From Thiohalobacter sp. (GTDB lineage Bacteria; Pseudomonadota; Gammaproteobacteria; Thiohalobacterales; Thiohalobacteraceae), in the NCBI RefSeq assembly GCF_027000115.1, contig NZ_JALTON010000060.1, forward strand, positions 1 to 32,551: a DNA stretch of 32,551 nucleotides. Reading direction: 5' to 3'. Positions 9,864-31,984 of this stretch are shown in pieces. Position 1 is the stretch's first letter, and every line of letters starts with the position of its first letter. The notes beneath the pieces were generated by a model. It was not told the origin of the DNA. It did no database searches and saw only the letters and a list, made by a program, of their open reading frames with translations. Position numbers and translations under genes: made by a program.

Positions 9864-11663
9864 ATGGACCAACGTTTGCCGCTACGCCGGCCGGCGACGC
9901 CGGGCAGTTTCGACGCCCAGCCCGCCCACGTCGAACAATGGATTGCCGCTCTCCCCGTCCTCAATGTCGGCGAGACCACCCGGCTGCTGTTCAACGCCCT
10001 GGTGGAATTCAACACCCTGGAGATGCCCACCGCCCAACGCATGAAGTCGCTGGAGCTGCTGCGGGTGCCGGTGCGCAACATCACGGAAACCCTGAAGAAA
10101 CATTATGTGGGACACAGCTTCCCGCTGGCGCCCAAGGGGCGCAAGGTCGCCGAGCTGTCCAAGGAAATGCTCAACCAGCTCGCCATCGGCTACCGCATCG
10201 TGGTCGCCGAGGAACGCGACAAGCCGCGTTTCCGCCGCGACAAGCGCCTGCTGGCCACCGCCATGCACCGCGCGCTGGCCTGCCTCGGCCTGGTCCTGCT
10301 CAAGGCCTACCAGGTCTATGCCCCCTACCCGCCCGGCGTCTGGCGCGAGGTGCACCGGCTGTACGAACAGGCCAGCGAACGCGGCCTGCTCGAGCACGCG
10401 GTCCGCGATGCCGGCGAGGACGGCATTGCCCTGACCATCGAGGATGCCTACAAGCAGATCCTGCTGCTGGCGCTGGCCTGTCCCTACCGGCTGCGCCAGG
10501 GCGAGGTGGAGCAGGTGTTCCGCGCCCTCGAGAACTGGTCCCGCGAGGCGGAACTCACCGACCTGGTCGAGGCACCCAATCCCGGCGGCCTGTTCATCGT
10601 CAATCTGGCCAGCGACGACCCGCCGAGCTACCTGATCCTGCGCCACACCCGGTACGATCGCGCGCATTGCCGGCTGCTGGACACCGCGCGGCTGGCCGAA
10701 ACCGTGCGCCATGCCTTCACCGACCGCAATCAGGGCCGTGCCGGCCCCGGCGTTCCGTCCGAGACCATCCTGCGGCGGCTGATGCTGTCCTGGGGCGTGA
10801 TGCCCAGGCGACGCTATTCGCGGACCGAAAAGGCCGCCACTGCCGTGGTCGCCATGGGCCTGAGCGCCACCCACTACTTCATCAGCGGCGAGAACACCTT
10901 CTCGGCCGACAGCGGCGACGCCGAGGCCCCGCACTACGACGCCCGCGCGACCTTCACCGCTCGCGAGACCCGGGAGCGCGAGAACGAGGTCCCCGATGTG
11001 TGGGACTTGGCCGAGACCCGCCGCTGGCGCAGCGACGACAACCATCGCATCCGCATGGTGGATTTTCCTGCCCAACCGAGCAAACTGGCGCCGAAGTCAC
11101 CCCCGCCACTGGAGACCGAACCCCATCCACCGGAGTATCACACCCACGAGTGGAAGATGGTCGACGTCAGCGCCGGCGGCTACCGGCTGCTGTGGGACAG
11201 CGGCGAGAACTCGGAAGCCGAGGTCGGCGAGCTGGTCGGCATCCGCGAGGCTTCGGACCCCGATGCCTTCCACATGGGACTGGGCGTGGTGCGCTGGATG
11301 AAGTGCGCCGAGGGTCGTGGTCTGGAGTTGGGCGTGCAGATGATCGCGCCCGGCGGCGTGGCCGTGGGCACCAAGAAGGCCGGTGCCCGTGAATACCTGC
11401 GCAGCCTCATCCTGCCGGAGATTCGCGCCATCGGTCAGCCGGCCACCCTGATCACGCCCACCCTGCCCTACCATGTCGGCGACCAGGTGCTGGTCAACAG
11501 CCACGGCAAGGAGGCGCGGGTGGAGCTGACCAAGCTGGTCGAGAACACGGGGGCCTTCGCCCAGTTCCAGTTCCGGCCACTGGACAGCCGCGCCAGCAGC
11601 AGCCAGGGCGATTCCGCCGACGGCTCGAACTCCGGCTTCGACGAACTCTGGGAACAGATCTGA
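9864..11663 (+). CDS. Uncharacterised 599-residue protein with PilZ-like C-terminal region
   Basis: I do not recognise a named function. Residues about 20-270 are helical and leucine-rich ([29 protein letters not shown]), resembling a protein-interaction domain. Residues about 300-420 form a variable middle. The C-terminal part contains [17 protein letters not shown] and ELVGIREAS, followed by [26 protein letters not shown]; the DVSAGGYR stretch resembles the DxSxxG motif of PilZ c-di-GMP-binding domains. I do not see a clear RxxxR motif, so ligand binding is uncertain. A FimX-type gene lies downstream, and I recall an uncharacterised large gene beside fimX in Pseudomonas. A role in c-di-GMP or twitching control is therefore inferred from context. 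GGAG precedes the ATG. Confidence 0.8.
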
Positions 11664-11681
11664 AAGAATGCGGCGGGCCCG

Positions 11682-12209
11682 TCAGCCCCCGTAGATCCTG
11701 AAGAAGTCGTCCGGATAGCGAATGCGACCGCCCCCTTCGAGCGCACCCGCTTCCAGCTCCATGGCGGACACCGCCTCGCCCGGACAGGGCAGGTTGGTTT
11801 CCAGGCCCCAGTCCGAGGCCGGACGAAAGCCGAACCGCTGATAGTAGTCGGGATGACCCGCCACCACGATGGCGGCATAGCGCATGTCACGGGCGCGGTT
11901 GACGGCGGCCTGGATCAGCGCCGAGCCGATGCCGCGGTGGGACTGCGAGGGCACCACCGACATGGGCCCCAGTGCCAGTACCCGGTCACGGCCCTTGCCA
12001 CCCTCGCGGGCCACCGGCGACAGCAGCACATGACCGACGATGCGGCCGTTGATCTCGGCCACCAGCGACAGGTCGCGGATAAAACCCGGGCGGTTGCGCA
12101 CGGCGTCGACCAGCTGGGCCTCGGCCTCGCCCTCGAAGGCGCTCAGGTTGACCACGTCGATGGCCTTGACGTCTTCCGGCGTCTCCGCGCGGACGATGAC
12201 CTCATGCAT
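11682..12209 (-). CDS. GNAT-family N-acetyltransferase (YhbS-like)
   Basis: A 175-residue acetyltransferase. Motif A appears as VVPSQSHRGIGSALIQAAV, with the acetyl-CoA pyrophosphate-binding RGIGSA loop; motif B follows at AAIVVAGHPDYYQRFGF. The RFGFRPAS segment near the end is typical of the YhbS subgroup. The substrate is unknown. It lies opposite in direction to both neighbours and converges on the 9864-11663 gene with an 18-bp gap, so it is probably a single-gene unit. In E. coli yhbS sits beside the ubiT/U/V homologues; here those genes lie about 4 kb away. Confidence 0.88.
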   Translation of the reverse strand: MHEVIVRAETPEDVKAIDVVNLSAFEGEAEAQLVDAVRNRPGFIRDLSLVAEINGRIVGHVLLSPVAREGGKGRDRVLALGPMSVVPSQSHRGIGSALIQAAVNRARDMRYAAIVVAGHPDYYQRFGFRPASDWGLETNLPCPGEAVSAMELEAGALEGGGRIRYPDDFFRIYGG

Positions 12210-12268
12210 GTTCGCCTACTCCTCAAGCGCAAGCCGACGAGTTCATGCTAGCAGGATTCACCCGCATG

Positions 12269-12287
12269 GAAAACAGCCCGGGTTTTC
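12269..12287. repeat. Inverted repeat between the divergent GNAT and fimX genes
   Basis: GAAAAC (12269-12274) and GTTTTC (12282-12287) form a perfect 6-bp inverted repeat around AGCCCGG. It is the only AT-rich symmetric element in the 192-bp divergent region, so it could be an operator or a small hairpin. No convincing -35/-10 pair was found for either gene. Confidence 0.35.
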
Positions 12288-12401
12288 TGTAAAACGATCC
12301 TGACGCGAGGGCGACAGGACTTCATTTTCAGCACCTGCTGCCGCTAAGCTCACGATGGAGTCCATACACCGTCACGGAAGGGAACAGGAACGGAGGACCG
12401 A

Positions 12402-14495
12402 GTGTCGACGGACGACAAGCTGCTTCGCCTCATCATCGCCGAGGAATCCCGGAACGACGCCGAGGCCGTTGCCAACATCCTGCGCAATGCCGGCCATGCC
12501 GTGCGCTTCCACTATGTGGAGGACACAGAGGATCTCGAGAATGCCCTCGACCAGCAGGTCCCGGACCTGATCATCCTCTCCGAGGGCCTGGAAGGACTCG
12601 GCCTGGACGCGCTGCGCACCGAACTGGACAGCCGCAAGCTGGACATCCCCGTCATCCTCATGGCCGCCGAGGCCAACGAGGCGGAGGTGGTCGAGGCCCT
12701 GCGCGCCGGCGCCACCGACCTGGTGTCCTTCGACCAGCCCGACCACCTGCGGCTGGTGGTCGAACGCGAGCAGAAGAGCCTGCATACCCGACGCGCCCTG
12801 CAGCGATTCGAAACCATCTACAGGGAAAGCGAGCGCCGCTGCCGCGCACTGCTGGACACCTCGCGCGACGCCATCGCCTACGTGCACGACGGCATGCATA
12901 TCTATGCCAACCAGTCCTATCTGGAGATGTTCGGCTTCGACGACATGGAGGAAATCGAGGGCCACCCGATCATGGACATGGTCGCGCCGGAGGACCATGG
13001 CTCCTTCAAGGATTTCCTGCGCAGCTACGGCAAGGAGGACAGCGAGGAGATCGCCGAGCTGGAGGTTTCCTGCGTCAGCGCCAGCAAGGGCAGCTTCAAG
13101 GCGCTGATGGAGTTCGCGCCCGCCTCCATCGAGGGCGAGGCCTGCACCCAGATCGTCATCCGTGACCGTTCGACCGCAGACCCGGAACTGGCCGAGAAGC
13201 TCAGGCACCTGAGCAAGCAGGACATGCTCACCGGCCTGTTCAATCGCCAGTACTTCATGGAAGAGGTGGAACTGGCCGTCTCCGAGGCGGTCACCGGCGG
13301 CGAGAGCAGCGGCGTGCTCTACGTGCTGCTGGACAACTTCAAGCAGGTCAAGGAAAGCGTCGGCCTGGCTGCCAGCGACCTGGTCATCAAGGACATCGCC
13401 GATCTCATTCGCAACAAGGTGGGCGACAGCGGCATCGCCGCCCGCTTCGGCGACAACACCTTTGCCGTGCTTTGCCGCGGCAGCGACATCGACGCCGCCC
13501 AGGCCCTGGCCGAGGCCATCCGCCACAGTGTCGAGGAGCATATCGTCGATGTCGAGGGCCGTTCGGTCACCGTCACCTGCTCGGTCGGCATCAGCCTGAT
13601 CACCGAGTCGGCCCCCGAAGCCGCCGAGGTCATGGCCCGGGCGGACCTGGCCTGCGAGGTGGCGCGCTCCGCCGGCGGCAACCGCGTGCACCTGCACAAT
13701 CCGGTCACCGACGAACAGCGCGGCAGGGAACGCGAGGCGCAATGGAAACAACTGATCAAGGAGGGACTGGAGCAGGACCGCTTCCACCTGGTCTACCAGC
13801 CCATCGTCAGCCTGCAGGGCGACCCGCAGGAAAAATACGAGGTGCTGCTGCGGCTGCGCGACGCCGAGGGCCAGGACTACCTGCCGGGCCAGTTCCTGCC
13901 GGTGGCCATCGACGGCGGCCTCATCGCCGAGATCGATCGCTGGGTCATCGCCCATGCCATCGAGGTACTGGCCGAGCACCGGCGTCAGGACCACGACACC
14001 CAGTTCTTCGTCAAGGTGTCCGGCGTGACGCTTGCCGACCAGGAACTGCCGCTGTGGATCAACGAGCAGCTCAAGGCGGCGCGCCTGCAGAGCGACGCCA
14101 TCGTGTTCGAGATCGCGGAAAAGGAGGCCAGCCAACACCTCAAGCATGCCAAGGCCTTCATCAAGGCGGTCAAGGCGCTGCACATAGGCACCTCGCTGGA
14201 ACACTTCGGCAGCAGCCCCAATTCCTTCCAGCTGCTCAAGCACGCCGATGTCGACTACCTCAAGATCGACGGCGCCTTCATCCACAACCTGATGAAGGAC
14301 GAGAACAACCAGGCCATGGTCAAGTCGATCGTGGAAATGGCCCGCTCCATGAACAAGCAATGCGTGGCCGAGTTCGTCGAGGACGCCTCCAGCGTGGCCA
14401 TGCTGTTCCAGTTCGGTGTCCAGTACATCCAGGGCTACTTCCTGCAGGAACCCCATCCCGCGCTGGACTACGACTTCTCCGAGGAATCACTGTAG
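12402..14495 (+). CDS. fimX: FimX-type degenerate GGDEF/EAL c-di-GMP receptor
   Basis: A 697-residue protein with four domains. The first is a REC-like domain (about 8-125) in which the phospho-acceptor position reads DLIILSEG instead of an Asp. Then come a PAS domain (about 138-255), a GGDEF domain (about 265-425) whose signature is GDNTF at 350-354, and an EAL domain (about 440-690) with EVL at 480-482. The loop-6 DDFG motif is replaced by LEHFG. All catalytic signatures are therefore lost, as in Pseudomonas FimX (691 residues, also EVL), which binds c-di-GMP through its EAL domain and controls type IV pilus assembly and twitching. The GTG start at 12402 has a strong GGAGGA ribosome binding site. 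The FimX role is by family resemblance; no pilus genes are in the window. Confidence 0.9.
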   Translation: MSTDDKLLRLIIAEESRNDAEAVANILRNAGHAVRFHYVEDTEDLENALDQQVPDLIILSEGLEGLGLDALRTELDSRKLDIPVILMAAEANEAEVVEALRAGATDLVSFDQPDHLRLVVEREQKSLHTRRALQRFETIYRESERRCRALLDTSRDAIAYVHDGMHIYANQSYLEMFGFDDMEEIEGHPIMDMVAPEDHGSFKDFLRSYGKEDSEEIAELEVSCVSASKGSFKALMEFAPASIEGEACTQIVIRDRSTADPELAEKLRHLSKQDMLTGLFNRQYFMEEVELAVSEAVTGGESSGVLYVLLDNFKQVKESVGLAASDLVIKDIADLIRNKVGDSGIAARFGDNTFAVLCRGSDIDAAQALAEAIRHSVEEHIVDVEGRSVTVTCSVGISLITESAPEAAEVMARADLACEVARSAGGNRVHLHNPVTDEQRGREREAQWKQLIKEGLEQDRFHLVYQPIVSLQGDPQEKYEVLLRLRDAEGQDYLPGQFLPVAIDGGLIAEIDRWVIAHAIEVLAEHRRQDHDTQFFVKVSGVTLADQELPLWINEQLKAARLQSDAIVFEIAEKEASQHLKHAKAFIKAVKALHIGTSLEHFGSSPNSFQLLKHADVDYLKIDGAFIHNLMKDENNQAMVKSIVEMARSMNKQCVAEFVEDASSVAMLFQFGVQYIQGYFLQEPHPALDYDFSEESL

Positions 14496-21299: not shown

Positions 21300-21314
21300 A
21301 TAGAAGACTTCTAT
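21300..21314. repeat. Short palindrome ATAGAAG-A-CTTCTAT
   Basis: A 7-bp perfect inverted repeat around a single central base. It overlaps the stop codon of the chimeric open frame at 21311-21658 and lies about 125 bp from the DUF1269-like gene. It may be an operator or a chance palindrome. Confidence 0.3.
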
Positions 21315-21658
21315 GAGTCCTCGGAACGCCAGCCCTTGTCCGCGCGGCGCCGGTCGGCTTCCGGCGGATCGCCTCGCCGAAAGCGCCTGATGAGTTCATG
21401 CTGTTCCTTGCCGGGAAAGATAACGTAAAGCCATTCAGAGGGTCGTTCTTGGGCAAGAGCTTGCCGCTCCTTATCTATTACCGGGATATCCGCTTGAATT
21501 CTCGCCCGATTTTGCGGAGAGAACGCCGGCATGCCGTCGAAGGGATAGGCCAACGCGGGTCGATCCCCGCGTGTGCGGGGAAGCCCGTCCCGGCCGGCGG
21601 CCTGCAGCCGGTGCAGGGCGTCGAGGACAGGCCGGTCATCTACTTCGATTCGGATCAT
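21311..21658 (-). pseudogene. Chimeric open frame: phage virion-morphogenesis start fused through a CRISPR repeat to unknown sequence
   Basis: Read as one frame this gives 115 residues in three parts. Residues 1-24 (MIRIEVDDRPVLDALHRLQA...) look like the start of a Mu gpG-type virion-morphogenesis protein. Residues about 25-34 (GLPRTRGDRP) are a translation of the orphan CRISPR repeat 21558-21585. The remaining 80 or so residues (ALAYPFDGMPAFSPQNRARI... to KGWRSEDS) resemble no family I know and do not continue the phage protein. The frame is therefore an accident of the junction, and the phage part is a truncated gene. The left part could be a relic of a gene that bordered the original array end. 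Confidence 0.6.
21558..21585 (-). repeat. Orphan type I-E CRISPR repeat
   Basis: This 28-bp stretch is identical, base for base, to the 13 repeats of the array at 22536-23295 and in the same orientation. It is 950 bp beyond the leader-distal repeat. No repeat is found 61 bp further left, where 21497-21524 is unrelated. It probably marks the original leader-distal end of the array. Confidence 0.95.
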
Positions 21659-22535
21659 TGTCTATAATAATAGGAAGCGCCCAGGGCATCGGGACGTTGT
21701 GCTCATACCACAAAGCCGTTACGGACGTAGTCCTGGGGACTGGGCGCTCTTCCACAGGGTTTGCAGCACCATCATCCGCCGGCTGCTGCGCAGTTCAAAC
21801 GCGGCCGTGTATTCGACGTCGTTCCAGCGGCGCCGGGCACGCACCACGGGGCGACCGACATCGGATGTCCCGCCGTATTCCAGGGCGTCGGCATCCAGGA
21901 TGATCGCGGGCAGCCGTGCATAGTCTTCCACCGTGACCGCCACCTGCCCCCGGGGCGCCTCGGTTGCGGCATCGCCATGCTGGCGGCGCACATGGCCGGG
22001 CGCGTTGCGGTCGATGGCCCAGTCGTAGAGCGCCAGCCGCCCTGCGTCCTGCCCGGTCATGCCCGCGATCTGCCGGGCCTCGCTTGCAGTCAGCAGGCCG
22101 AGCGTGCGATACGGCGGCACCGGCCGCCCCGCGAGCACGGCCTGGGCGTAGCGGCGGGTGTCCTCGGCCACCGAGGGTAGACCGCGGTAGGCGATGGCGT
22201 GGGCGTCGCGCACCCGCGCCGGCAGGGCCTGCATATAGGCCTTGGCCAGCTCGTAGGGCCACTGGCGCGTCTTGTCGGCCATCGCTACCGCCATGTCCCG
22301 CAGTCCCGGATCCAGCGGCGCCAGCCGGCGCGCGATCTCGCCCAGCGCGCGGGCCCGCCGCCCCGGCATGTAGTCCCATCCCGGGTCGATCCCGGGCGGT
22401 GCCCCAGTGTCCGGGTCGGCTGAGTTCCAGCCCTCGGGGGGCTGCTTGTCCGGATTGCCGCCGAGCCGCCGCGCGCCGCGTTCGGAGCGGGCGCCGACGA
22501 CGTAGCAGCGACAATTGCTGACCACCGCCGCGTTC
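21586..22535 (-). mobile_element. Mu-like phage head-gene segment located between two CRISPR repeats
   Basis: A 950-bp block bounded exactly by two perfect CRISPR repeats. On the minus strand it reads as the C-terminal part of a MuF-type head morphogenesis gene (22535 to 21719), a 60-bp gap and the first 24 codons of a gpG-type gene. That is the gene order of Mu-like phages. Phage-like protein sequence runs to the repeat on both sides: NCRCYVV begins within about 25 bp of the right repeat and QAAGRD touches the left one. There are no phage ends, integrase or attachment sites. It is a fragment, not a prophage. Confidence 0.8.
21719..22535 (-). pseudogene. C-terminal fragment of a MuF-type phage head protein with nuclease-like tail
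   Basis: An uninterrupted frame of about 272 codons with no start of its own, beginning at the CRISPR repeat. The first part (NCRCYVVGARSERGARR..., GIDPGWDYMPGRRA) matches the end of MuF/minor-head proteins, where NCRC and DPGWDYNPG are common. The C-terminal 100 residues resemble the phage barnase/EndoU/colicin-like nuclease (PBECR/MuF-C) domains: APGHVRRQHGD, GQVAVTVEDYARLPAIILDADALEY and RRMMVLQTLWK. The putative catalytic histidine is in HVRRQHG. The lack of frameshifts suggests a recent event. The frame is in the same direction as array transcription. Confidence 0.75.
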
Positions 22536-23295
22536 GGTCGATCCCCGCGTGTGCGGGGAAGCCCGCATTCTTTGGTTGCCTCGTGCTCGAGGGCAAGGTC
22601 GATCCCCGCGTGTGCGGGGAAGCCTCGCTGGCGTCGTCGGACAGGCGTCCGACGTGAGGTCGATCCCCGCGTGTGCGGGGAAGCCCCGAACAGGTCGTGC
22701 CTCACTCTCGCATGAGGGGGTCGATCCCCGCGTGTGCGGGGAAGCCGTCCAGAAGGTCTACATGTCGAACGGCAACCCGGGTCGATCCCCGCGTGTGCGG
22801 GGAAGCCGAGGCCAACGCGGCCACGGCCACCAAGCCGAAGGGTCGATCCCCGCGTGTGCGGGGAAGCCCCACGAACCGGAGCCTGCAGCATGACCGACAG
22901 AGGTCGATCCCCGCGTGTGCGGGGAAGCCCGCAGTGCTCACGGACGAGAAGATGATCGTATTGGTCGATCCCCGCGTGTGCGGGGAAGCCGAGAGCCCGG
23001 CCAGAAGCCGGGCTTCGTGGAGGGGTCGATCCCCGCGTGTGCGGGGAAGCCCTGCGACACGAAAGTGCCGCAGGAGATGGCCGAGGTCGATCCCCGCGTG
23101 TGCGGGGAAGCCGCGTTTGCGCGGGGTGTGGCGCGGGCGGGGCTGGGTCGATCCCCGCGTGTGCGGGGAAGCCAGCCCCATGACGCGATGGGTCAGGCCG
23201 TGGCGGGGTCGATCCCCGCGTGTGCGGGGAAGCCTGGGCCAACCGGTATGGCGTCCATAGGCAGGTGGGTCGATCCCCGCGTGTGCGGGGAAGCC
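22536..23295 (-). CRISPR. Type I-E CRISPR array, 13 repeats and 12 spacers
   Basis: Thirteen identical 28-bp repeats start at 22536 and recur every 61 bp to 23268; all 12 spacers are 33 bp. On the minus strand the repeat begins GGCTTCCCCGC and ends GCGGGGATCGACC, with the CCCCGC/GCGGGG hairpin recognised by Cas6e. This orientation matches the E. coli I-E repeat and puts the leader at 23296, next to cas2, so the array is transcribed leftwards. No repeat shows decay, even at the leader-distal end. Spacer 22991-23023 holds a perfect 8-bp inverted repeat. Peptide-like open frames across this block are repeat artefacts. Confidence 0.99.
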
Positions 23296-23344
23296 TCTTG
23301 TATGCGACGCCTTGATTTTACACAAATTGTTAAAGAGCGAAGAA
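23296..23344 (-). promoter_or_regulatory. CRISPR leader with boxA-like element
   Basis: The 49 bp between the cas2 stop and the first repeat are AT-rich relative to the surroundings. On the minus strand they contain CGCTCTTTAACAATTTG; the part CGCTCTTTAACA (23328-23339) is one base from the boxA sequence of E. coli rRNA operons. BoxA elements in CRISPR leaders are known to recruit Nus factors and prevent premature Rho termination. The leader is short, so promoter and integration-host sites may extend into the end of cas2. Confidence 0.75.
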
Positions 23345-23713
23345 CTACCCGGGTGTTATCCCGGCCCGTTTACCTGAGAAAGTCCGTTCCCATTTGGTTT
23401 GCGCTGTCTCCGTATCCATCTGATGGTGTGTAACGATCAAGCCATCGACTTCGACCAGGGCAACCGGTGGCAGGCCCAGTGTTTTAACAGCCTGTTCGCC
23501 GGGCATCCGCGGCTCGCGCCAGACCATGACAATGGACGCCTCCTGTTCTCCTGTGAACCATTCTTCCAGAACCTTCCAGATACGCTCGCGGACGGCCGGT
23601 GACTGGCGTGGTGAGCTGTAGACCCCGGGTGCCATCTCCAGCATGGTGGAAGCTAGAAAACCCCGTATGCGGGGCGATACATTACGGGTGACCACCACGG
23701 TCATCGTCGACAT
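23345..23713 (-). CDS. cas2: CRISPR-associated protein Cas2 (type I-E, Cas2e)
   Basis: A 122-residue Cas2e. MSTMTVVVTRNVSPRIRGFLASTMLEMAPGVYSS parallels the E. coli start MSMLVVVTENVPPR, and LVEVDGLIVT matches the final core strand. With Cas1 it forms the integrase complex that captures spacers. E. coli Cas2e ends soon after that strand; here about 28 residues follow (HHQMDTETAQTKWERTFSGKRAGITPG). The gene overlaps the end of cas1 by 32 bp. An ATG three codons in (23704) is an alternative start. The array leader begins right after the stop. Confidence 0.95.
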   Translation of the reverse strand: MSTMTVVVTRNVSPRIRGFLASTMLEMAPGVYSSPRQSPAVRERIWKVLEEWFTGEQEASIVMVWREPRMPGEQAVKTLGLPPVALVEVDGLIVTHHQMDTETAQTKWERTFSGKRAGITPG

Positions 23714-24581
23714 GGAGCAGTTCCTTTATTCGATCAATCATGGCAGGGATGATTTTGCGCTTGCGGAACCAGGATGCGGCTGTGAACCGGATCTCCCGTT
23801 CGAGCAGCAGTTCGGGATCGTCCATGACCTTGCGCGCCACGGAAAAAGCCAAAGGGACGGTAAAGTCGTCTCGCCACAGATCGGCAATATCCAGTGTAAA
23901 CGCATTGCTGGATTCTTCGTGGATGAACCCCAATGGAGGCAGCGCACCCACGGCGGCAACGGCAATATCGGCCGCCGATTCGACAAACGTGGCTGCGTGA
24001 TTAAGTGCCTGGTTGGGCACATCGTTGGTGGACGGATTCTGCCGGTCATATCGCCTCCCCCGCCAGGGAATACCGTATTTCTCGGCGTGAGTCTTGTACA
24101 TGGATTTTACCCGTCCGCCCTCGATCCCGCGCAGGACCGTGATATCCCGGTGCGGCAGCACTCGCCCGAAACGAAAGGCATACATCCGTCGGGCCACCTC
24201 GAGGCGGGCTTTCTCGTCGGCCCAAAGGCGAGCATGTGAACGCGCCACGTCTGACTGGCCCTGGCCCATGGGAGGCGCGGTGTAAAAGCGAATGCCGCCT
24301 TCTCCGATGGCGGCCAGCAGGGTACCGTGACGGGCCAGGATACGCAGGGCGTCATGGCTGACCGTCGTCCCGGGACCCATGAGAATCATCGAGACGGACT
24401 GGTAAGGGATGGCATAGACTCCGGGTTTGAACAAATCACTTTTTGCAGCCAGAAACTGGAGTGTTCCGTCCTCCACATAGAGATTGCCACGACTGAGCCA
24501 TAGCAGGCCATGCCGGTCGGCATGGGGAATGCGGCTTTCAGCGAGACCGAGCCGGCCGGGAAACAAGCCTCTGCGCGACAT
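23682..24581 (-). CDS. cas1: CRISPR-associated endonuclease/integrase Cas1 (type I-E)
   Basis: A 299-residue Cas1 (E. coli 305). Metal-binding residues are visible: E154 in RGIEGGRVK, H221 in LGFIHEESSNAF, and D231/D234 in LDIADLW. It joins new spacers at the leader-repeat junction with Cas2. The ATG at 24581 (MSRRGLFPGRLGLAESRIPHADRHGLLWL) lies 2 bp after the cas6e stop. The longer upstream frame overlaps cas6e and is not used. Nothing suggests inactivation, so adaptation should be possible. Confidence 0.97.
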   Translation of the reverse strand: MSRRGLFPGRLGLAESRIPHADRHGLLWLSRGNLYVEDGTLQFLAAKSDLFKPGVYAIPYQSVSMILMGPGTTVSHDALRILARHGTLLAAIGEGGIRFYTAPPMGQGQSDVARSHARLWADEKARLEVARRMYAFRFGRVLPHRDITVLRGIEGGRVKSMYKTHAEKYGIPWRGRRYDRQNPSTNDVPNQALNHAATFVESAADIAVAAVGALPPLGFIHEESSNAFTLDIADLWRDDFTVPLAFSVARKVMDDPELLLEREIRFTAASWFRKRKIIPAMIDRIKELLHVDDDRGGHP

Positions 24582-24583
24582 GA

Positions 24584-25318
24584 TCAGGCAGGACGAAGCA
24601 GGATCATGCCAAAGCCGAAGGCGCGGTGCCGCCCTACCCCCCGGCGCAACAAGTCCAGAAGGCCGCCATCCCCGGTGGCTTTGAGAACGCCGCGGAATTC
24701 GGCCTGTGGTCGAATCGCCTGTCGAGGATTGCGGGGATGATCCTGCGTCTTGCGCATCACTTTCCCCAGACGGAATGCGTTCACGTCTATATTCAGTATC
24801 TGGATGCCCTCCACGGCTTCGGCTCGGGTTCTGAACCAGTCCTGATACACCGTCGCGCGCTCCAGCGTCTCCTCCGGCGCCTGTTCGGTGGCAAGCAGGA
24901 AAACGTCCTTCTCGGTGCCTTGCCTGGCCTTGCGCCCCACGGGGCAGCACAATGCCTCGAAAGCGTAGTGCCGGTTCGGTGGCCACTCCTGCGGCAGGGC
25001 CTTGCCCTGAATCCCGTCGGCGGGACAGACCGCTTCCACGGATGGGGTGCCGAACCGGGCGAGGTGATCGCCGAGTGCGTCGGCCGGATGATCCGAATAG
25101 GCCAGGATGCGGGCTGGCAGGAATCGTCGCTGCGGCGGCCCTGGCATGAATAATCGCCAGCGTCCCGGTGCCCGATCACCAAAGGCAGCCTTGAGCCAGG
25201 CATGACCGAGATACCCCAGGTCCAGTTCGCCACGACCGGGATCCAGTCCCTGCTCGCGGGCGAAGGCCATGAAGGCCCTGGGGTCGAGAGTGCATTGGAT
25301 CATGTAAAGAGGATTCAT
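24584..25318 (-). CDS. cas6e: CRISPR pre-crRNA endoribonuclease Cas6e (CasE)
   Basis: A 244-residue RAMP protein that cuts the repeat hairpins and stays bound in Cascade. It has two ferredoxin-like folds. A histidine in LGHAWLKAAFG (about H39) is the likely catalytic residue by comparison with the N-terminal His of known Cas6e. The C-terminal glycine-rich loop reads GVGRHRAFGFGM. The ATG is 2 bp after the cas5e stop, and cas1 follows in the same way. Confidence 0.95.
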   Translation of the reverse strand: MNPLYMIQCTLDPRAFMAFAREQGLDPGRGELDLGYLGHAWLKAAFGDRAPGRWRLFMPGPPQRRFLPARILAYSDHPADALGDHLARFGTPSVEAVCPADGIQGKALPQEWPPNRHYAFEALCCPVGRKARQGTEKDVFLLATEQAPEETLERATVYQDWFRTRAEAVEGIQILNIDVNAFRLGKVMRKTQDHPRNPRQAIRPQAEFRGVLKATGDGGLLDLLRRGVGRHRAFGFGMILLRPA

Positions 25319-25320
25319 GT

Positions 25321-26073
25321 TCAGCCTCCGAGGATGCCTTCAGCCCGCTCCCGGCTGCCGGCAGGGAGCTGGTTGGCCCAGTCGCGCAGATCGTAGACAC
25401 GGCGGATTTCACCACCCGTTCCTTTGGGGAAGCCCAGTTCGGCGGGCCAGCAGGCCTCCGCCTTTCCCGCCTCGTCCTGCGGTTGCCCGTTCCGATCCCA
25501 GCGAGGCACGTCGCGGAGGATGGCGAGGAGATCCGGCCCTTCGCGCACCGGTACCGGGTCGAGCAGGGGACGGGCGGGCAAGCAGGCCTTGCGGCCCAGG
25601 AACAGGGGACGAGCGGGATGCGCCAGGGCATCGCGCACGGCGTCGAGGTCCGGATTCCCTTCTTCCGCCAGAGCAAGGGCGACGGTCATGAGGCCGTCGG
25701 CCCAGTAGTGGCGATACCGGATGTGCGTGCCCTTCGTTGCCTCACCTTTTCCTCTACCCTCCGGTACACCCCTAGTGGTCCATCCTAAGGGCTCTTTACC
25801 TGTTGCATAACCTTTCATCTTAGGCTGCCCCAGATTGACAGTGTGGTAATCTACGATGCGTACCGGTAGTACGTCCCAGCGGGCGGCGTAGGCGAGTCGT
25901 GCCTGCAATGCCTCGAGACGTTCGAAATCACCATGCCCCCAGCCGAGGGCGTTGCCGACAAGACCCGTGAGCAGGCTGGTTCCGGGGAAACGCTCGATGA
26001 AACCATGTTGATCGATCATCACCCCGCCGAAGCTCATCAGTGGCGCATCCAGGCGCAAGATGAGGGCTTTCAT
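25321..26073 (-). CDS. cas5e: Cascade subunit Cas5e (CasD)
   Basis: A 250-residue protein. MKALILRLDAPLMSFGGVMIDQHGFIERFPGTSLLTGLVGNALGW is the typical start, with the P-rich and G-rich loops of Cas5e. LRDVPRWDRNG and the end region are longer than in E. coli CasD (224). It caps the 5' handle of the crRNA in Cascade. Its ATG overlaps the cas7e stop by 4 bp (ATGA at 26070-26073). Confidence 0.95.
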   Translation of the reverse strand: MKALILRLDAPLMSFGGVMIDQHGFIERFPGTSLLTGLVGNALGWGHGDFERLEALQARLAYAARWDVLPVRIVDYHTVNLGQPKMKGYATGKEPLGWTTRGVPEGRGKGEATKGTHIRYRHYWADGLMTVALALAEEGNPDLDAVRDALAHPARPLFLGRKACLPARPLLDPVPVREGPDLLAILRDVPRWDRNGQPQDEAGKAEACWPAELGFPKGTGGEIRRVYDLRDWANQLPAGSRERAEGILGG

Positions 26074-27242
26074 GCCGCGCCTCCGAAGATGTATCCCAGA
26101 GCCTTCTCGATAGCTTCAGGCAGGGGCAGGACCGATTCCGATTCCCGTGGCCAGGGGTGACGGCTGGAAACCCAGCGGCCGGCGTCGGCTTTGCCGTACA
26201 TTTGCTCCATGCCGCCAAGATAGTCGGCGGCCGCATCGGCGGACTGTTTCAAGGGGTGAACCTCGTCAGACGGTCTTACCGGCTGAAGATAGGCGTTGGC
26301 CAGGCTGCGGGGTTGACCTCTTCCGGCCTCCAGCAGCATCCATTCGGCGTGGGCGTAGGGTGCGGTGGCGCCCAGTTTGGCTCCCGGCGAGACCTGGGCG
26401 ATGGCGTGGATCAGCCGTTCCAGCAGCTTTCGCGCATCTGCGTGGTCCTGCGCCTGCCAGTCCTTCGCGCTCGCCCCAGTAAGGTTGGAGACCAGCAGGG
26501 GGATATCCACGGCCACATAGCCGTAGAAGATGCCGGCGCCCAGTTCCATGTCACCCGCGTGGGCAGCACCGGTTTCCTCATCCTTGTTCAGATCGTCCAC
26601 CACCGTGAAAAAGTCCACTTCCGTATCCAGTGCATGGGTGGTAAAGGCGTGGGCCACATGCACGGGCGCATCGAGGCGGGCAAGGATATCGGAAGTAACG
26701 AAACGGCCGAACAGCGCACCCTCGAAGCCGGCAGCCAGATCATGCGCTCCGGCTTGGCTCATGAGGGCCTTGAGGTTCTTTTTCCCCTCCTTGAGCTGTT
26801 GATTCAACCACTCGGTAGCGGCTTTTTCGTCGCCTTGTCCGGCAGCCTCCTGAATGAGCCAGACGAAGAAGTCGGCCTCGGGTCTGCCGAAAAGCACCGG
26901 CTGTTTCATGGCCAGGGTGTCTTTGTCCACGGCGTCCTTTTCTCCGGCCGCAGTGAGCAGGGCCTTGGCCAGATGCAGGGTGAGGGCATGAGCCAATGCC
27001 TCCTCCATGCCGTCTTTCACCAGTCGCGGCTTGACCTCGCGGCCGAAGAATTCGCGGGTACGGAGACCCGAGGGCAGATCGGTCTGTTCCATGAGCCATT
27101 CCCGCCAGTGGCGTTTCTGGCACTGGCTGGACACGCGCAGGCGCTCGCTGCCGCCAAACGGGATACGCTTGGCGAGTCCGGCGTCGTCGCGGTTGAGGAG
27201 GGTGGCGTGGTAGCTGGTGAGGAAGTGGATTTGCAGAAACAT
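26070..27242 (-). CDS. cas7e: Cascade backbone subunit Cas7e (CasC)
   Basis: A 390-residue protein beginning MFLQIHFLTSYHATLLNRDDAGLAKRIPFGGSERLRVSSQCQKRHWR, a very characteristic Cas7e start. Further conserved parts are FGRFVTSDILARLDAPVHVAHAFTTHALDTEVDFFTVVDDL, AGIFYGYVAVDIPLLVSNL and RQPRSLANAYLQPVRP (near the end). Six copies line the crRNA in Cascade. It lies 14 bp after cse2 and overlaps cas5e by 4 bp. Confidence 0.97.
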   Translation of the reverse strand: MFLQIHFLTSYHATLLNRDDAGLAKRIPFGGSERLRVSSQCQKRHWREWLMEQTDLPSGLRTREFFGREVKPRLVKDGMEEALAHALTLHLAKALLTAAGEKDAVDKDTLAMKQPVLFGRPEADFFVWLIQEAAGQGDEKAATEWLNQQLKEGKKNLKALMSQAGAHDLAAGFEGALFGRFVTSDILARLDAPVHVAHAFTTHALDTEVDFFTVVDDLNKDEETGAAHAGDMELGAGIFYGYVAVDIPLLVSNLTGASAKDWQAQDHADARKLLERLIHAIAQVSPGAKLGATAPYAHAEWMLLEAGRGQPRSLANAYLQPVRPSDEVHPLKQSADAAADYLGGMEQMYGKADAGRWVSSRHPWPRESESVLPLPEAIEKALGYIFGGAA

Positions 27243-27256
27243 GAAATTTCTCCTTG

Positions 27257-27760
27257 TCAGGCAGTCTTCTTCTGTTGTTCGACGATGGTGTAGAAGTCAC
27301 GGGCTACATGCCGGTGCACGCGTTCACGTTTTTCCGGGTCACGGGTCAGAAGCAGGCGGGCGGCGTCCTGCCAGTCGAAGGGGCGGGCCTTGGCGGCGAG
27401 AAAACGCACGGCGCGCAGGAACAGGGTCCGCCGGGTATCACCCTCGCTCTGCAGCAGGCGCTCGAGGCGCCCTTCGCTGTAGCCGCCCTCCCCCAGGGCC
27501 GTGCCCAGGCCGGTTCCGGAGCGGTGGGCATGCGGGACCATGAGGGCGATGCCAGCGACAAGGGTGATCCAGTCCGCCTCGTCCCGCTCCCAGGTTTCGG
27601 GCAGATGGCGCAGGGCAAAGCGGTAGAAATACAGGGGTGGGGGCTGGCCGGGCGTCATCCGTTTGAGTGCAGCGCGCTCGCCGGTGGGGAAGTGTTCGCT
27701 GGAGAGGGTGCCAGCAACGTGGGCGATGGCACGGGCAAGGGAGTCAGGCGATGTGCTCAT
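27257..27760 (-). CDS. cse2: Cascade small subunit Cse2 (CasB/Cas11e)
   Basis: A 167-residue helical protein, close to E. coli CasB (160). The start MSTSPDSLARAIAHVAGTL at 27760 overlaps the end of cas8e by 17 bp. Identifying segments are LKRMTPGQPPPLYFYRFALRHLP, LVAGIALMVPHAHR, and RLERLLQSEGDTRRTLFLRAVRFLAAK. Two copies stabilise target DNA in Cascade. The longer frame to 27898 overlaps cas8e and is rejected. Confidence 0.94.
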   Translation of the reverse strand: MSTSPDSLARAIAHVAGTLSSEHFPTGERAALKRMTPGQPPPLYFYRFALRHLPETWERDEADWITLVAGIALMVPHAHRSGTGLGTALGEGGYSEGRLERLLQSEGDTRRTLFLRAVRFLAAKARPFDWQDAARLLLTRDPEKRERVHRHVARDFYTIVEQQKKTA

Positions 27761-29294
27761 GGCGGGCCTCCTTGAGGTCGGGGAAATATTTGTACAAGGC
27801 GCCGCAGAAGGTGCGACCGGCGGCGACCCGGGCGTGCCACAGGCGTCCGGCATGCCGGGGTAGCGACTGTTCGGCCTCTTGCAGCACGGTCTCGGCATGT
27901 CGCTTCAGGCGACTGGCCCAGTCCAGGCGTGCTTCGTCCTTGTTCAGGGAATCTGGCAACGACCAGAGCCAGGGAAAGTAGTCGTCGGACCAGAGGGTTT
28001 CGAAGCGGGAGGCAAACCGCTTCCACCAGGCGTTTGAGGTATCGTCGTCGAACGCCAGATTCTCTGGGGCGCCTTGCATGAGAACCAACACGGCAGGCTT
28101 CAGGATCCGGTTCCGCATGAGCCCGGCCAGCTCGATACCCTCCCTGGCCAGGAGAGCGAGGGGATCATCCGGTTGTAACCTGAACAGCCGCCGCTTTACC
28201 TGCGCGGGGATGGGAAGATGACGCTCGTGGAAACCGTCGGTCGTACCCTGCCCTCGCACCAGAACGGAGGCCAGCAACCATGTGTCCCCCTGCCAGTCTT
28301 CGCCCGGTTCCTGGAGGCGGGTACGGCGGATGGCGTCCTGGAAGAGGATGCGCCGCATCAGGTCAGCGGTCCAGCCATTGGCAGAGACGGTCAGCGCCTT
28401 GGCGCCCTCCTTCACGGAAAGATCCACCGGTAGCCAGGCATCCTCCACCAGGCCATTCAATTCCTTTGCGGCGATCCGGTTGGCATTGGAAGGTAGGCCT
28501 GCCGCGTTGAAGACGTGTTCATTGTCCCCTTTCAAGCGTATGCGTCGGCAGATTTCCAGGAAGAAGGGATCCAGATCCGACAGGTTGAGACTCGCCTTGC
28601 CGTCCCAGGGCAGCAACCAGACCAGTACCAGGCCATCGTCCCGGAAAGGGATGTTCCCGGCCAGCGCCTGGCGGCGGTGGTCTCGCAGGCGCAGCACGGC
28701 GTCGCGCCAGCGGGGAGCCTGTTTCCGGGAACGGGCCACCTCCACGACGGGACGGTTGCCGAAACCGCTGTTCATGCGGGCTATGCCATATTTCTTCTTG
28801 CCGAAGAAGCCGCTCATGGTCTGCAGGCTGATGAGAGCGTAGAGCCATTCGAAGGGTTCAGGCCGGGTGGCGCGAGCCCGTTTGACATCATGGTTCTTGG
28901 CGGTGGGCAACAGATCCAGAGTATCTGGCGTTTCGGCCAGGCGCTTGAGCTTTCCATGATCCGCCTTTGGCAGAGGTGGCTGCATGAAGGCCGGTTTCGA
29001 AAGGTCGTCCCCCACCAGCGCCCAGGTGTCGTCCCCCGCCTCACCGGCGAGCACCCGCAGACCATCGCGCCAGAAGGCTTCCTCACGCACGGGGTTCCAG
29101 TCACCGTCGCGGGCCAGAACAGCCCCGGCCAGATAACAAAGGAAAACGTGGAAGGCATCCTCCTGATGGCGCTGCAGCCCGTCGATGCGCTGCACGGTGT
29201 CAGCACCCAGGCCGGCGAGAAGGGCCGGCAGGTTGATGTATTGCCGGCCGTCGGCCGTGAACACGGGAATAAGAGGGTCGGTGAGCAGATTCAT
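27744..29294 (-). CDS. cas8e: Cascade large subunit Cas8e (Cse1/CasA)
   Basis: A 516-residue protein (E. coli CasA 502). It starts MNLLTDPLIPVFTADGRQYINLPALLAGLG, the usual N-terminal motif. It continues with HQEDAFHVFLCYLAGAVLARDGD, FEWLYALISLQTMSGFFGKKKYGIARMNSG and a helical C-terminal bundle after about residue 370. Cas8e recognises the PAM and recruits Cas3. Its ATG overlaps the cas3 stop (ATGA, 29291-29294), so the nuclease and effector genes are translated together. No interruption is visible. Confidence 0.96.
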   Translation of the reverse strand: MNLLTDPLIPVFTADGRQYINLPALLAGLGADTVQRIDGLQRHQEDAFHVFLCYLAGAVLARDGDWNPVREEAFWRDGLRVLAGEAGDDTWALVGDDLSKPAFMQPPLPKADHGKLKRLAETPDTLDLLPTAKNHDVKRARATRPEPFEWLYALISLQTMSGFFGKKKYGIARMNSGFGNRPVVEVARSRKQAPRWRDAVLRLRDHRRQALAGNIPFRDDGLVLVWLLPWDGKASLNLSDLDPFFLEICRRIRLKGDNEHVFNAAGLPSNANRIAAKELNGLVEDAWLPVDLSVKEGAKALTVSANGWTADLMRRILFQDAIRRTRLQEPGEDWQGDTWLLASVLVRGQGTTDGFHERHLPIPAQVKRRLFRLQPDDPLALLAREGIELAGLMRNRILKPAVLVLMQGAPENLAFDDDTSNAWWKRFASRFETLWSDDYFPWLWSLPDSLNKDEARLDWASRLKRHAETVLQEAEQSLPRHAGRLWHARVAAGRTFCGALYKYFPDLKEARHEHIA

Positions 29295-31984
29295 GATGTC
29301 TCCTTGCCTTCCAGGCCGTAGCGGGAGTAGGTGTAATGCCGATCGGCGCAGCGCAAGTGGATGACGCCACCCTCCTCGCTTTCCACCGTCACTGTGTCGT
29401 TGGGCTGTCCGGGGGCCAGGTGTTCGGGAATGGTGATCTCATGCAGGGCCTGACCGAAGGGGCTCTGGACATGCCGGTCCAGGGGCAGGCGCAGGGCGTC
29501 TGCTCCCAGGCGGGTGGCCACCTTGAGCCCCTGTTCGTTGAAGACGAAGTCACCAAAGCAGCGTTCGAAGGGGATGTTGACGGCTGCCGCTTGCTGGGCC
29601 TTGTGAATATCACTACCCAACACGTGCTGGCCGTGGCGTGCCCAGCGCGCGTCTTCTGCTTCGAGCAGAGACAGGGATTCGGGGTGGGTGGCGGCCTCAA
29701 CCAGCCTGCGGTTGTCGGTGGGGATTTCGAGTGTGGGCGTTTCCAGCAGGCTTCGGCGGGTTTGCTCAAGTGAGCGCAAGTCCTCGTATATACCATTCGA
29801 ATTCCGGCCGAAGCCCCAGCCTATACGCCGGAAGCGTCCTGCTACAAAACCCTGATCATCCAGCCCCGTCACCAGCTTTTCATCGGGTGTCAGAAGCAGG
29901 CAGCGGGCCTCCCCGAAACCTGTCGGACGGGGCCGATCATGCCGGTGCAGTCGGCCGAGACGTTGCAAGAGCACGTCTGCGGGTACGAGGTCGGTGACCA
30001 GCAGATCGGCGTCGATGTCCAGGCTCTGCTCCAGCGTTTGTGTGCCAATGATAAGTACAGGCCCGTCAGGCCCACCCTTGCCCATCCGGGCGCTCACGGC
30101 GGCGTCGAGCACCAGCCGGTCTTCAGGGGCGAAGCGGCCGTGATGGGGACAGGGCACCTCTTCGAAACTGAAGCCCCAGGCTGGGTTCATGCCCGGGTGG
30201 GCCTCCAGGGCGCGATGCAGGGTATTGGCCCGATTCACGGTATTCATGACTACCATGATCCGGGCGCCCGCTTGCAGCGCCTGGACGAGGCGATCGGCCA
30301 GCTTTTCGGGGATGAAGGCAAGGGGGGTTTCTTCGACGATGATGGATCTTGTTCGCGCCTCACCAGGACAGGGTGTAACGCTGCCATCGGCGCGGCTGAG
30401 CAGCGGATAAGCCAGGGTTTGGCAGTCTGTCACTGTTGGCGGCTGTACCCGGTTGGGGTTCTCGCCACGGGCCACCGCCAGGTAGCGTTCGCGGGCCTCC
30501 GCGCCCAGGGTCGCGGAGAGAAGCACGGCCCGGCCGCCCAACGCCAGGTGGTGTTCCAACAGGTGCTCCAGGAGACTGGCCATGTAGCGATCAGATGCGT
30601 GGACCTCGTCCACCACCAGGAGACTGCGAGCAAGGCAGGCGCCGCGGAGGTGGGCGTGTTTGGTCTGCACCGCCGAAAGCAGGGCCTGGTCGATGGTACC
30701 CACCGCCACGGTGGCGGCAAGGAAGCGCTTGGGATGCTCGATGGCCCAGACACGCTCCCGCCGCCGGGCCTGGTCGTCATCTTCCCAGATGTTGCCTGCC
30801 TCAGGCACCGGCAGAATCTGATCAGCGGGCAAGCCGTCCACTTGGGCGTAACCGGGCACAGCGAGGACGGTCACGGGGCGGCATGCGGGATCGGGGAACC
30901 AGCGGGACATGGTGTCGTGCACGCGGGTGTACAGCTCGCGGGCGGCCACGCGGGTGGGCAGGGCAAAGTAGAGACCCTCCACCTCACCGCCGGCGAAGAG
31001 GGTGAAGAACCAGTCCAGGGCGGCCTCCGTCTTCCCCGAGCCCGTTTCCGACTCGGCGATGAGCAGGCGGCTGGCCGGATCCGAGGGGTCTTGGCCATGC
31101 ATTACCGTCTGCAGGGGGCGCGGAGTAAAGCCGAATCGTTCCTCGAAGGACCCGGGGCCCGGTTGCAGGACGGAACGCAGGGGACGAGCATCCAGCCCCA
31201 CGGTCCGGAGTTCACGAGGGGCAGCCTCCCTGCTGTGTTCCAGGCGCGCCGCGGCGTCGGTGTTCTGGACGGGGAACCAGCGGGGGTGGGAACCGAGCCA
31301 GTCGGCCAACATCACCAGGCCGGCAAAGAGGTGCTGGAGACGGACAGCCCCAGGCAGGGGCGCCCCACCGGGCTCAAAGGCAGCCGGGAACGCCGCTTGG
31401 CTCCAGGTTACCAGCTCAGCGACCGCGGCCATGGGGTCGTATCCACCGTGGGGTTGCCAGTAGCCAGCGCTGGTGATCGCCCTGCCGGCCAGGCCCTCGT
31501 CGAATCTCACTGGGCGGCCGTGATGGGACCATGTGGCATGGAGATAACTCTCCAGTTCATCGCCCTCGTCATCGAACCAGGACTGGAGCCTGCCAACCTG
31601 GAGCGCCTCGGCAAAGGCCTGGTTCAGTTCGGCACGACCGGCGTCGAACAGAATCCCCAGCTCTGCCACATGACCGGCAGGTTCGAAGGGCGAGTCGGGG
31701 AAGACTTTGTACTGAAAGCCCAGGTTCGCCTTTCCCGCATCATGGAGCATGGCCAACACCGCCAACCGGTCGAGAATGCGATCATCAAGCATCCTTCCGG
31801 CGGCTGATTCCAGCGCCCGATGGAATCCAGGCAGGTCACAGAGCCTCCTGAAAACCAGCGCCACATCGATACAATGGCTTTCCAGTGGAAGACAATCTCG
31901 CTCAGAGAACTTGCCCCAGAAAATACAGCGGTCATGTGCTTGATCTAGCCCATCCTGCTTTGGATTAGCCTTCCTGTCCTGCAT
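29291..31984 (-). CDS. cas3: CRISPR-associated helicase-nuclease Cas3
   Basis: An 897-residue protein (E. coli 888). The N-terminal HD nuclease includes H37 in ESHCIDV, HD at 81-82 in MLHDAGK, and the later SHHGRP. The SF2 helicase follows, with Walker A SETGSGKTEAA (about 310-320), DEVH (about 458-461) in LLVVDEVHASDRY, LLSATLGAEAR (motif III) and QTLEQSLDIDADLLVTD (motif V) with the arginine finger in LQRLGRLHRH. All needed residues are present. It leads the cas operon. The ATG at 31984 is only 2 bp from an AGGAG, closer than usual. Confidence 0.97.
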   Translation of the reverse strand: MQDRKANPKQDGLDQAHDRCIFWGKFSERDCLPLESHCIDVALVFRRLCDLPGFHRALESAAGRMLDDRILDRLAVLAMLHDAGKANLGFQYKVFPDSPFEPAGHVAELGILFDAGRAELNQAFAEALQVGRLQSWFDDEGDELESYLHATWSHHGRPVRFDEGLAGRAITSAGYWQPHGGYDPMAAVAELVTWSQAAFPAAFEPGGAPLPGAVRLQHLFAGLVMLADWLGSHPRWFPVQNTDAAARLEHSREAAPRELRTVGLDARPLRSVLQPGPGSFEERFGFTPRPLQTVMHGQDPSDPASRLLIAESETGSGKTEAALDWFFTLFAGGEVEGLYFALPTRVAARELYTRVHDTMSRWFPDPACRPVTVLAVPGYAQVDGLPADQILPVPEAGNIWEDDDQARRRERVWAIEHPKRFLAATVAVGTIDQALLSAVQTKHAHLRGACLARSLLVVDEVHASDRYMASLLEHLLEHHLALGGRAVLLSATLGAEARERYLAVARGENPNRVQPPTVTDCQTLAYPLLSRADGSVTPCPGEARTRSIIVEETPLAFIPEKLADRLVQALQAGARIMVVMNTVNRANTLHRALEAHPGMNPAWGFSFEEVPCPHHGRFAPEDRLVLDAAVSARMGKGGPDGPVLIIGTQTLEQSLDIDADLLVTDLVPADVLLQRLGRLHRHDRPRPTGFGEARCLLLTPDEKLVTGLDDQGFVAGRFRRIGWGFGRNSNGIYEDLRSLEQTRRSLLETPTLEIPTDNRRLVEAATHPESLSLLEAEDARWARHGQHVLGSDIHKAQQAAAVNIPFERCFGDFVFNEQGLKVATRLGADALRLPLDRHVQSPFGQALHEITIPEHLAPGQPNDTVTVESEEGGVIHLRCADRHYTYSRYGLEGKETS

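Follow-up and report, generated by a model that had tools for sequence, protein, structure and literature searches.

A type I-E CRISPR array of Thiohalobacter sp. carries, in place of a spacer, a 950-bp stretch of Mu-like phage DNA that fits between two repeats to within about 10 nt and probably to 1 nt. The structure is real and unusual, and ordinary spacer capture does not explain it. As the explanation we favour, with a chance somewhat short of even, a continuous piece of a Mu-like phage genome would have replaced the oldest content of the array via recombination at two former spacers. The window analyzed is the whole of contig C60 (32,551 nt), which belongs to a draft genome of 2.65 Mb in 63 contigs, and all features of the window described below lie on its minus strand.

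Array and cas locus

An exact repeat search found 14 identical copies of the 28-bp repeat GGTCGATCCCCGCGTGTGCGGGGAAGCC, which form a single array and confirm the layout given in the preliminary description, i.e., a perfect terminal (leader-distal) repeat at 21558-21585, then 950 bp, then regular repeats from 22536. Repeats start at 21558, at 22536, and thereafter once per 61 bp up to 23268. The repeat leader-proximal to the phage interval occupies 22536-22563, and the regular array, with twelve spacers and twelve further repeats, extends over 22564-23295. These twelve inter-repeat lengths are exactly 33 bp, the canonical I-E spacer length being about 33 bp, whereas the remaining one (21586-22535) measures 950 bp. 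Since the leader and the cas operon are located at the opposite end of the array (about 23.3 kb), the 950-bp interval occupies the leader-distal and, therefore, oldest position.

The leader-side sequence (23296-23344) reaches from the first repeat to cas2e (23345-23713), which is accompanied by cas1e (23682-24578) and by cas6e, cas5e, cas7e, cse2, cse1, and cas3 (24584-31984), completing the I-E operon. The presence of all these genes in one operon, together with an array of about 61-bp period, assigns the system to type I-E. A full-length alignment of Cas1 with E. coli-type Cas1 also matches the catalytic Glu, His, and Asp positions. The Cas6e match (E 1.3e-9) is under the curated cut-off, and its position in the operon is as expected. 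A search of the locus against Rfam returned no match.

The 21-bp core of the repeat, with up to one mismatch allowed, has 14 matches in the genome, all within the array (21558-23295), and it is present in only one other genome among 369 of the class. This genome, G255, the sole other one with the repeat type of the window array, possesses an orphan array of three near-identical repeats with 61-bp spacing (contig C2, about 3255.0 kb; positions 1433-1582 of L083), which shows one core mismatch in two copies and sits inside or at the edge of an apparent sensor-protein gene. The array at 21558-23295 was common to no other genome of the family, no further genome of the same genus being among those returned. 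Past the terminal repeat, the trailer (21311-21557) is an open frame of 81 codons (ALAYPFDGMPAFSPQ...), for which no relative was found in Pfam or, by tblastn, in phage or plasmid records, and which is not phage by these searches.

Phage genes in the interval

By repeat search and homology, the interval at 21586-22535 is phage-derived, and it reads on the coding strand of the array as the C-terminal part of MuF, an intergenic element, and the start of gpG; the end of a MuF-type and the start of a gpG-type protein had been recognized before, and both assignments hold. Its 271-codon open frame matches PHROG 220 (Mu-like MuF / minor head protein) with an E value of 4e-10, and the comparison of this MuF with Rhodobacter phage RC1 gave 6e-37. 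MuF homology spans residues 7-271 of the 271-aa fragment, with identities of 63% (G077), 58% (G159), 56% (G569), and 52% (G271), and the nearest MuF relatives are found in prophage-like regions in other genera. Next to the repeat at 22536 lies the tail of an intein within MuF, consisting of its last 7 codons (NAAVVSN, 22514-22534), with the splice point before the C of CRCYVVGARS. The C-extein of this Mu gp30-like minor head protein is open to the stop codon (21719-22513), and its C-terminus carries a PBECR3 nuclease-like domain (21740-22027; PF18812, E 4.4e-10, above the cut-off). The MuF-PBECR3 frame contains no internal stop and is still open; therefore, the insert is either not of ancient origin or has suffered little damage. 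Of gpG (virion morphogenesis / tail completion protein), the interval contains the first 24 codons (21587-21658), which align through codon 24. In this Mu-like phage group, gpG normally comes after MuF on the same strand, and the interval matches this order. Only the MuF and gpG coding sequences and their gap are held in the interval, which has no element ends, transposase, or recombinase, and no target-site duplication was found at it apart from the CRISPR repeat itself.

Between MuF and gpG, an element conserved among related prophages (21684-21728) was observed. In the gaps of L032, L033, and L034, the identity of this non-coding stretch, ACGTCCGNAACG-NTTCGNGGTATGAGC, exceeds that of the flanks, and the MuF homologues of L037 and L038 show a hairpin-like stretch at the same position. 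Since the reading frame is lost in the window, the element may be a structured RNA or a DNA site; the window copy has no Rfam match. As well, the phage fragment and the CRISPR repeat, the latter at its 3' end, have about 10 bp in common (GGGATCGACC, minus strand, 22377-22402); this match lies well inside the interval and off the junctions, and is probably due to chance.

In a precursor transcribed from the leader, Cas6e sites would flank a unit of 950 nt. The interval is probably useless or inert as a guide at present, and its first 32 nt might in principle serve as one. The open PBECR3 domain, a MuF tail of the polymorphic-toxin type, sits downstream of an active-looking array.

Edges of the interval

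Close homologues of MuF align with the fragment only from CRCYVVGARS on, and upstream of this point they carry HYPPNGWG or similar, in contrast to NAAVVSN in the window. This disagreement (PPNGWGC in the homologues, NAAVVSNC in the window) was the earlier basis for a different reading, in which a 917-bp phage insert divided one 33-bp spacer into pieces of 22 nt and 11 nt. The split-spacer reading is ruled out by the MuF of a Mu-like prophage in G576, whose intein ends in GIVVSN/C. With a slash at each splice point, this protein runs ...HYPPSAWN/CFPGDT...TVNHPVLT...VYDFTTSTGLILAGGIVVSN/CSCYVVGARS..., its intein being located at exactly the Cys in question. The insert separates W-N from C-S-C at the CxC motif of MuF, and the window carries a related intein tail at the same site, with Asn before the Cys of the CxC motif in both cases (NAAVVSN/C and GIVVSN/C). 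Because the G576 intein ends at the same point of MuF, NAAVVSN/C is taken as the end of an intein and hence as phage sequence. By sequence comparison, the assignment of VVSN (12 nt) as intein end is firm, and the usual ending of inteins accommodates the preceding codons N, A, and A. The G576 gene itself (L069, G576:C1:76000-95500; frame 11543-13906) contains a complete intein-like insert of about 270 aa with no obvious endonuclease, which matches PF14890 with an E value of 1e-5, under the curated cut-off, and has Cys-1 present.

The non-phage remainder beside the repeat at 22536, therefore, does not exceed about 10 nt and is probably 1 nt. On the gpG side, ALHRLQAAGRD aligns with TFRKLIEAGTD of G569 and with other homologues, and gpG Asp-24 ends 1 nt short of the repeat at 21558, the conservative limit for non-phage sequence being about 9 nt. 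The remainders at the two edges cannot add up to 33, and simple insertion into one spacer is, therefore, excluded. According to the preliminary description, phage-like coding reaches both repeats without leftover spacer sequence; the edges are indeed near-exact. In addition, the coding at 22535 is the tail of an intein and not ordinary MuF, which strengthens this reading of the edges and of the phage origin.

An intein in MuF (gp30) has also been described for the Mu-like prophage of Methylococcus capsulatus Bath (PMC517821). The likeness to the window is at the level of the host protein; unlike the M. capsulatus Bath MuF intein, the window retains the last seven intein codons only.

Searches for the source phage and for protospacers

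The preliminary description had proposed a search of the 950 bp against phage and prophage sequences, which returned protein relatives in prophage-like regions and nothing at the DNA level among 50,697 phage records. The relatives found in IMG/VR, GTDB genomes, and phages were distant ones at the protein level only, and IMG/VR contained no close homologue of the junction. Portal searches of the same genome, run without a positive control, detected neither a source prophage nor another phage part. For the other spacers, searches of phages, of the 369 genomes of the class, and of IMG/VR, the last with three degenerate peptide patterns, gave no convincing protospacer, and their comparison with related Mu-like prophages yielded no match clearly above shuffled controls.

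The PAM in studied I-E systems is of the AAG or AAN type. The phage sequence that precedes the leader-distal 33-mer of the interval is ...TCGACG, which is not of this type, and AAG/AAN might not be the PAM of the present system. This check covers the distal 33-mer alone, the PAM position of the proximal one falling outside the interval. Among the ordinary spacers, 11 of the 12 begin with a pyrimidine (P about 0.01), which hints at a PAM with a last base other than G.

Origin of the interval

Recombination at two former spacers would start from an array with two spacers from the same phage, whose positions in its genome are separated by about 880 bp, and the terminal 33-mers at 22503-22535 and 21586-21618 would be those old spacers. 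Homologous recombination between both spacers and their protospacers, perhaps assisted by DNA ends from Cascade-Cas3 attack on the phage, would have copied the phage stretch between the protospacers into the array, and whatever separated the spacers would have been lost. This explanation is consistent with the perfect repeats on both sides of the interval, with phage coding up to both edges (VVSN/C at one end, gpG Asp-24 at the other), and with a genome in which Ku was not found. There are already reports of recombination between spacers and protospacers, i.e., between arrays and phages (Watson 2018; Varble 2019; both cited in the review PMC8616872). In the staphylococcal case (Varble et al. 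2019, as cited there), phage and array likewise recombine via spacer homology with junctions inside spacers; there the phage transfers CRISPR-Cas and adjacent DNA, whereas here phage DNA would have entered a I-E array by two events. On the other hand, two crossovers within 33-bp homologies are required, no other spacer matches this phage group, and an ancestral array with two ordinary spacers is not known. The ACG before the distal 33-mer is also unlike the AAG/AAN-type PAM, a weak mark against this explanation; the system's own PAM may differ. The double crossover put forward in the preliminary description thus agrees with the contiguous phage DNA and the near-exact edges and does not agree with the PAMs of studied I-E systems; it is plausible, unproven, and one of two live explanations that account for exact edges. 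In another recombinational route, circular phage DNA would integrate by a single (Campbell) crossover at one spacer, and the two ends of the interval would then carry identical 33-bp sequences; the longest direct string common to both ends is 5 bp and, therefore, a Campbell remnant at one spacer is ruled out.

The other live explanation is that a phage fragment of 950 bp, left untrimmed, was integrated in one piece by Cas1-Cas2 as a giant prespacer, with the repeat duplicated as normally, in which case the interval, being the oldest, may record a first acquisition. Edge-exact insertion flanked by repeats is the hallmark of this integrase, and Cas1 and Cas2 are intact here, with the catalytic residues of Cas1 conserved. 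Canonical I-E adaptation resembles the window in that foreign DNA is placed exactly between repeats beside intact cas1-cas2, and differs from it in inserting 33 bp instead of 950 bp. A giant prespacer would need a PAM at one edge only and, therefore, the ACG found inside the interval before the distal 33-mer poses no problem for it, and we reason that PCR adaptation assays that select +61-bp products are blind to such events. However, I-E length control is tight, Cas1-Cas2 measuring about 33 bp by a structural ruler (PMC5059440), and integration at the second site was inhibited by longer prespacer strands in the type II-A system of S. pyogenes (PMC8390005). The remaining twelve spacers are all exactly 33 bp, and no precedent near 1 kb for the integration of an over-long spacer was found in the literature searched. 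This explanation is considered rather unlikely. Less probable again, and to be regarded as improbable, is that the array, or a site beside it, received a complete Mu-like prophage whose two flanks were afterwards deleted, each deletion ending within a spacer of phage origin or, by coincidence, at the edge of a repeat. Mu-like phages do insert nearly anywhere. The integration of prophages and IS elements into CRISPR arrays has been reported as well (cited in PMC10359306), and, as in those cases, foreign DNA far beyond spacer length interrupts the array here; unlike them, the window has an internal phage fragment only, with no recombinase, transposase, or element ends. This course would take three events with two lucky ends, namely one insertion and two deletions each stopping at a repeat edge, while the phage ends are absent and no other phage part was detected in the genome, in searches without a positive control.

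Capture of a phage fragment by illegitimate end joining at a double-strand break in the array requires no homology. However, both ends lie within about 10 nt of the repeat edges, for which the chance, by our own estimate from the 61-bp period, is about 3% under loose limits and about 0.1% if 1 nt is left, and lossless insertion into one spacer is excluded. A search that detected B. subtilis Ku as positive control found no Ku in the genome. Because of the near-exact edges and the result for Ku, end joining is judged quite improbable. An error of assembly or cloning, by which phage reads became attached to a repeat, has the smallest chance and appears very improbable: the draft consists of 63 contigs and a repeat is a possible point of mis-joining in the graph, whereas the interval is single-copy with a repeat at both ends, the assembly holds no second array or copy with which to mis-join, and any modern read spans a 28-bp repeat.

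Implications for CRISPR arrays

More generally, and with appreciably more doubt than confidence, it is proposed that a natural I-E integrase, or recombination through the array's own spacers, can write kilobase phage stretches into the array with repeat-exact junctions. If true, this would be a kind of array change distinct from 33-bp adaptation, in contrast to the usual reading of arrays as fixed-length records that are added singly. Both routes would be missed by size-selected PCR assays and by CRISPR finders that discard long intervals, and both are testable in laboratory strains. Either the length control of Cas1-Cas2 can fail nearly thirty-fold in nature, or phage DNA can overwrite part of the array via its spacers; in the latter case, immune memory would be erased and phage genes, here one with a nuclease domain, would be brought into the locus.
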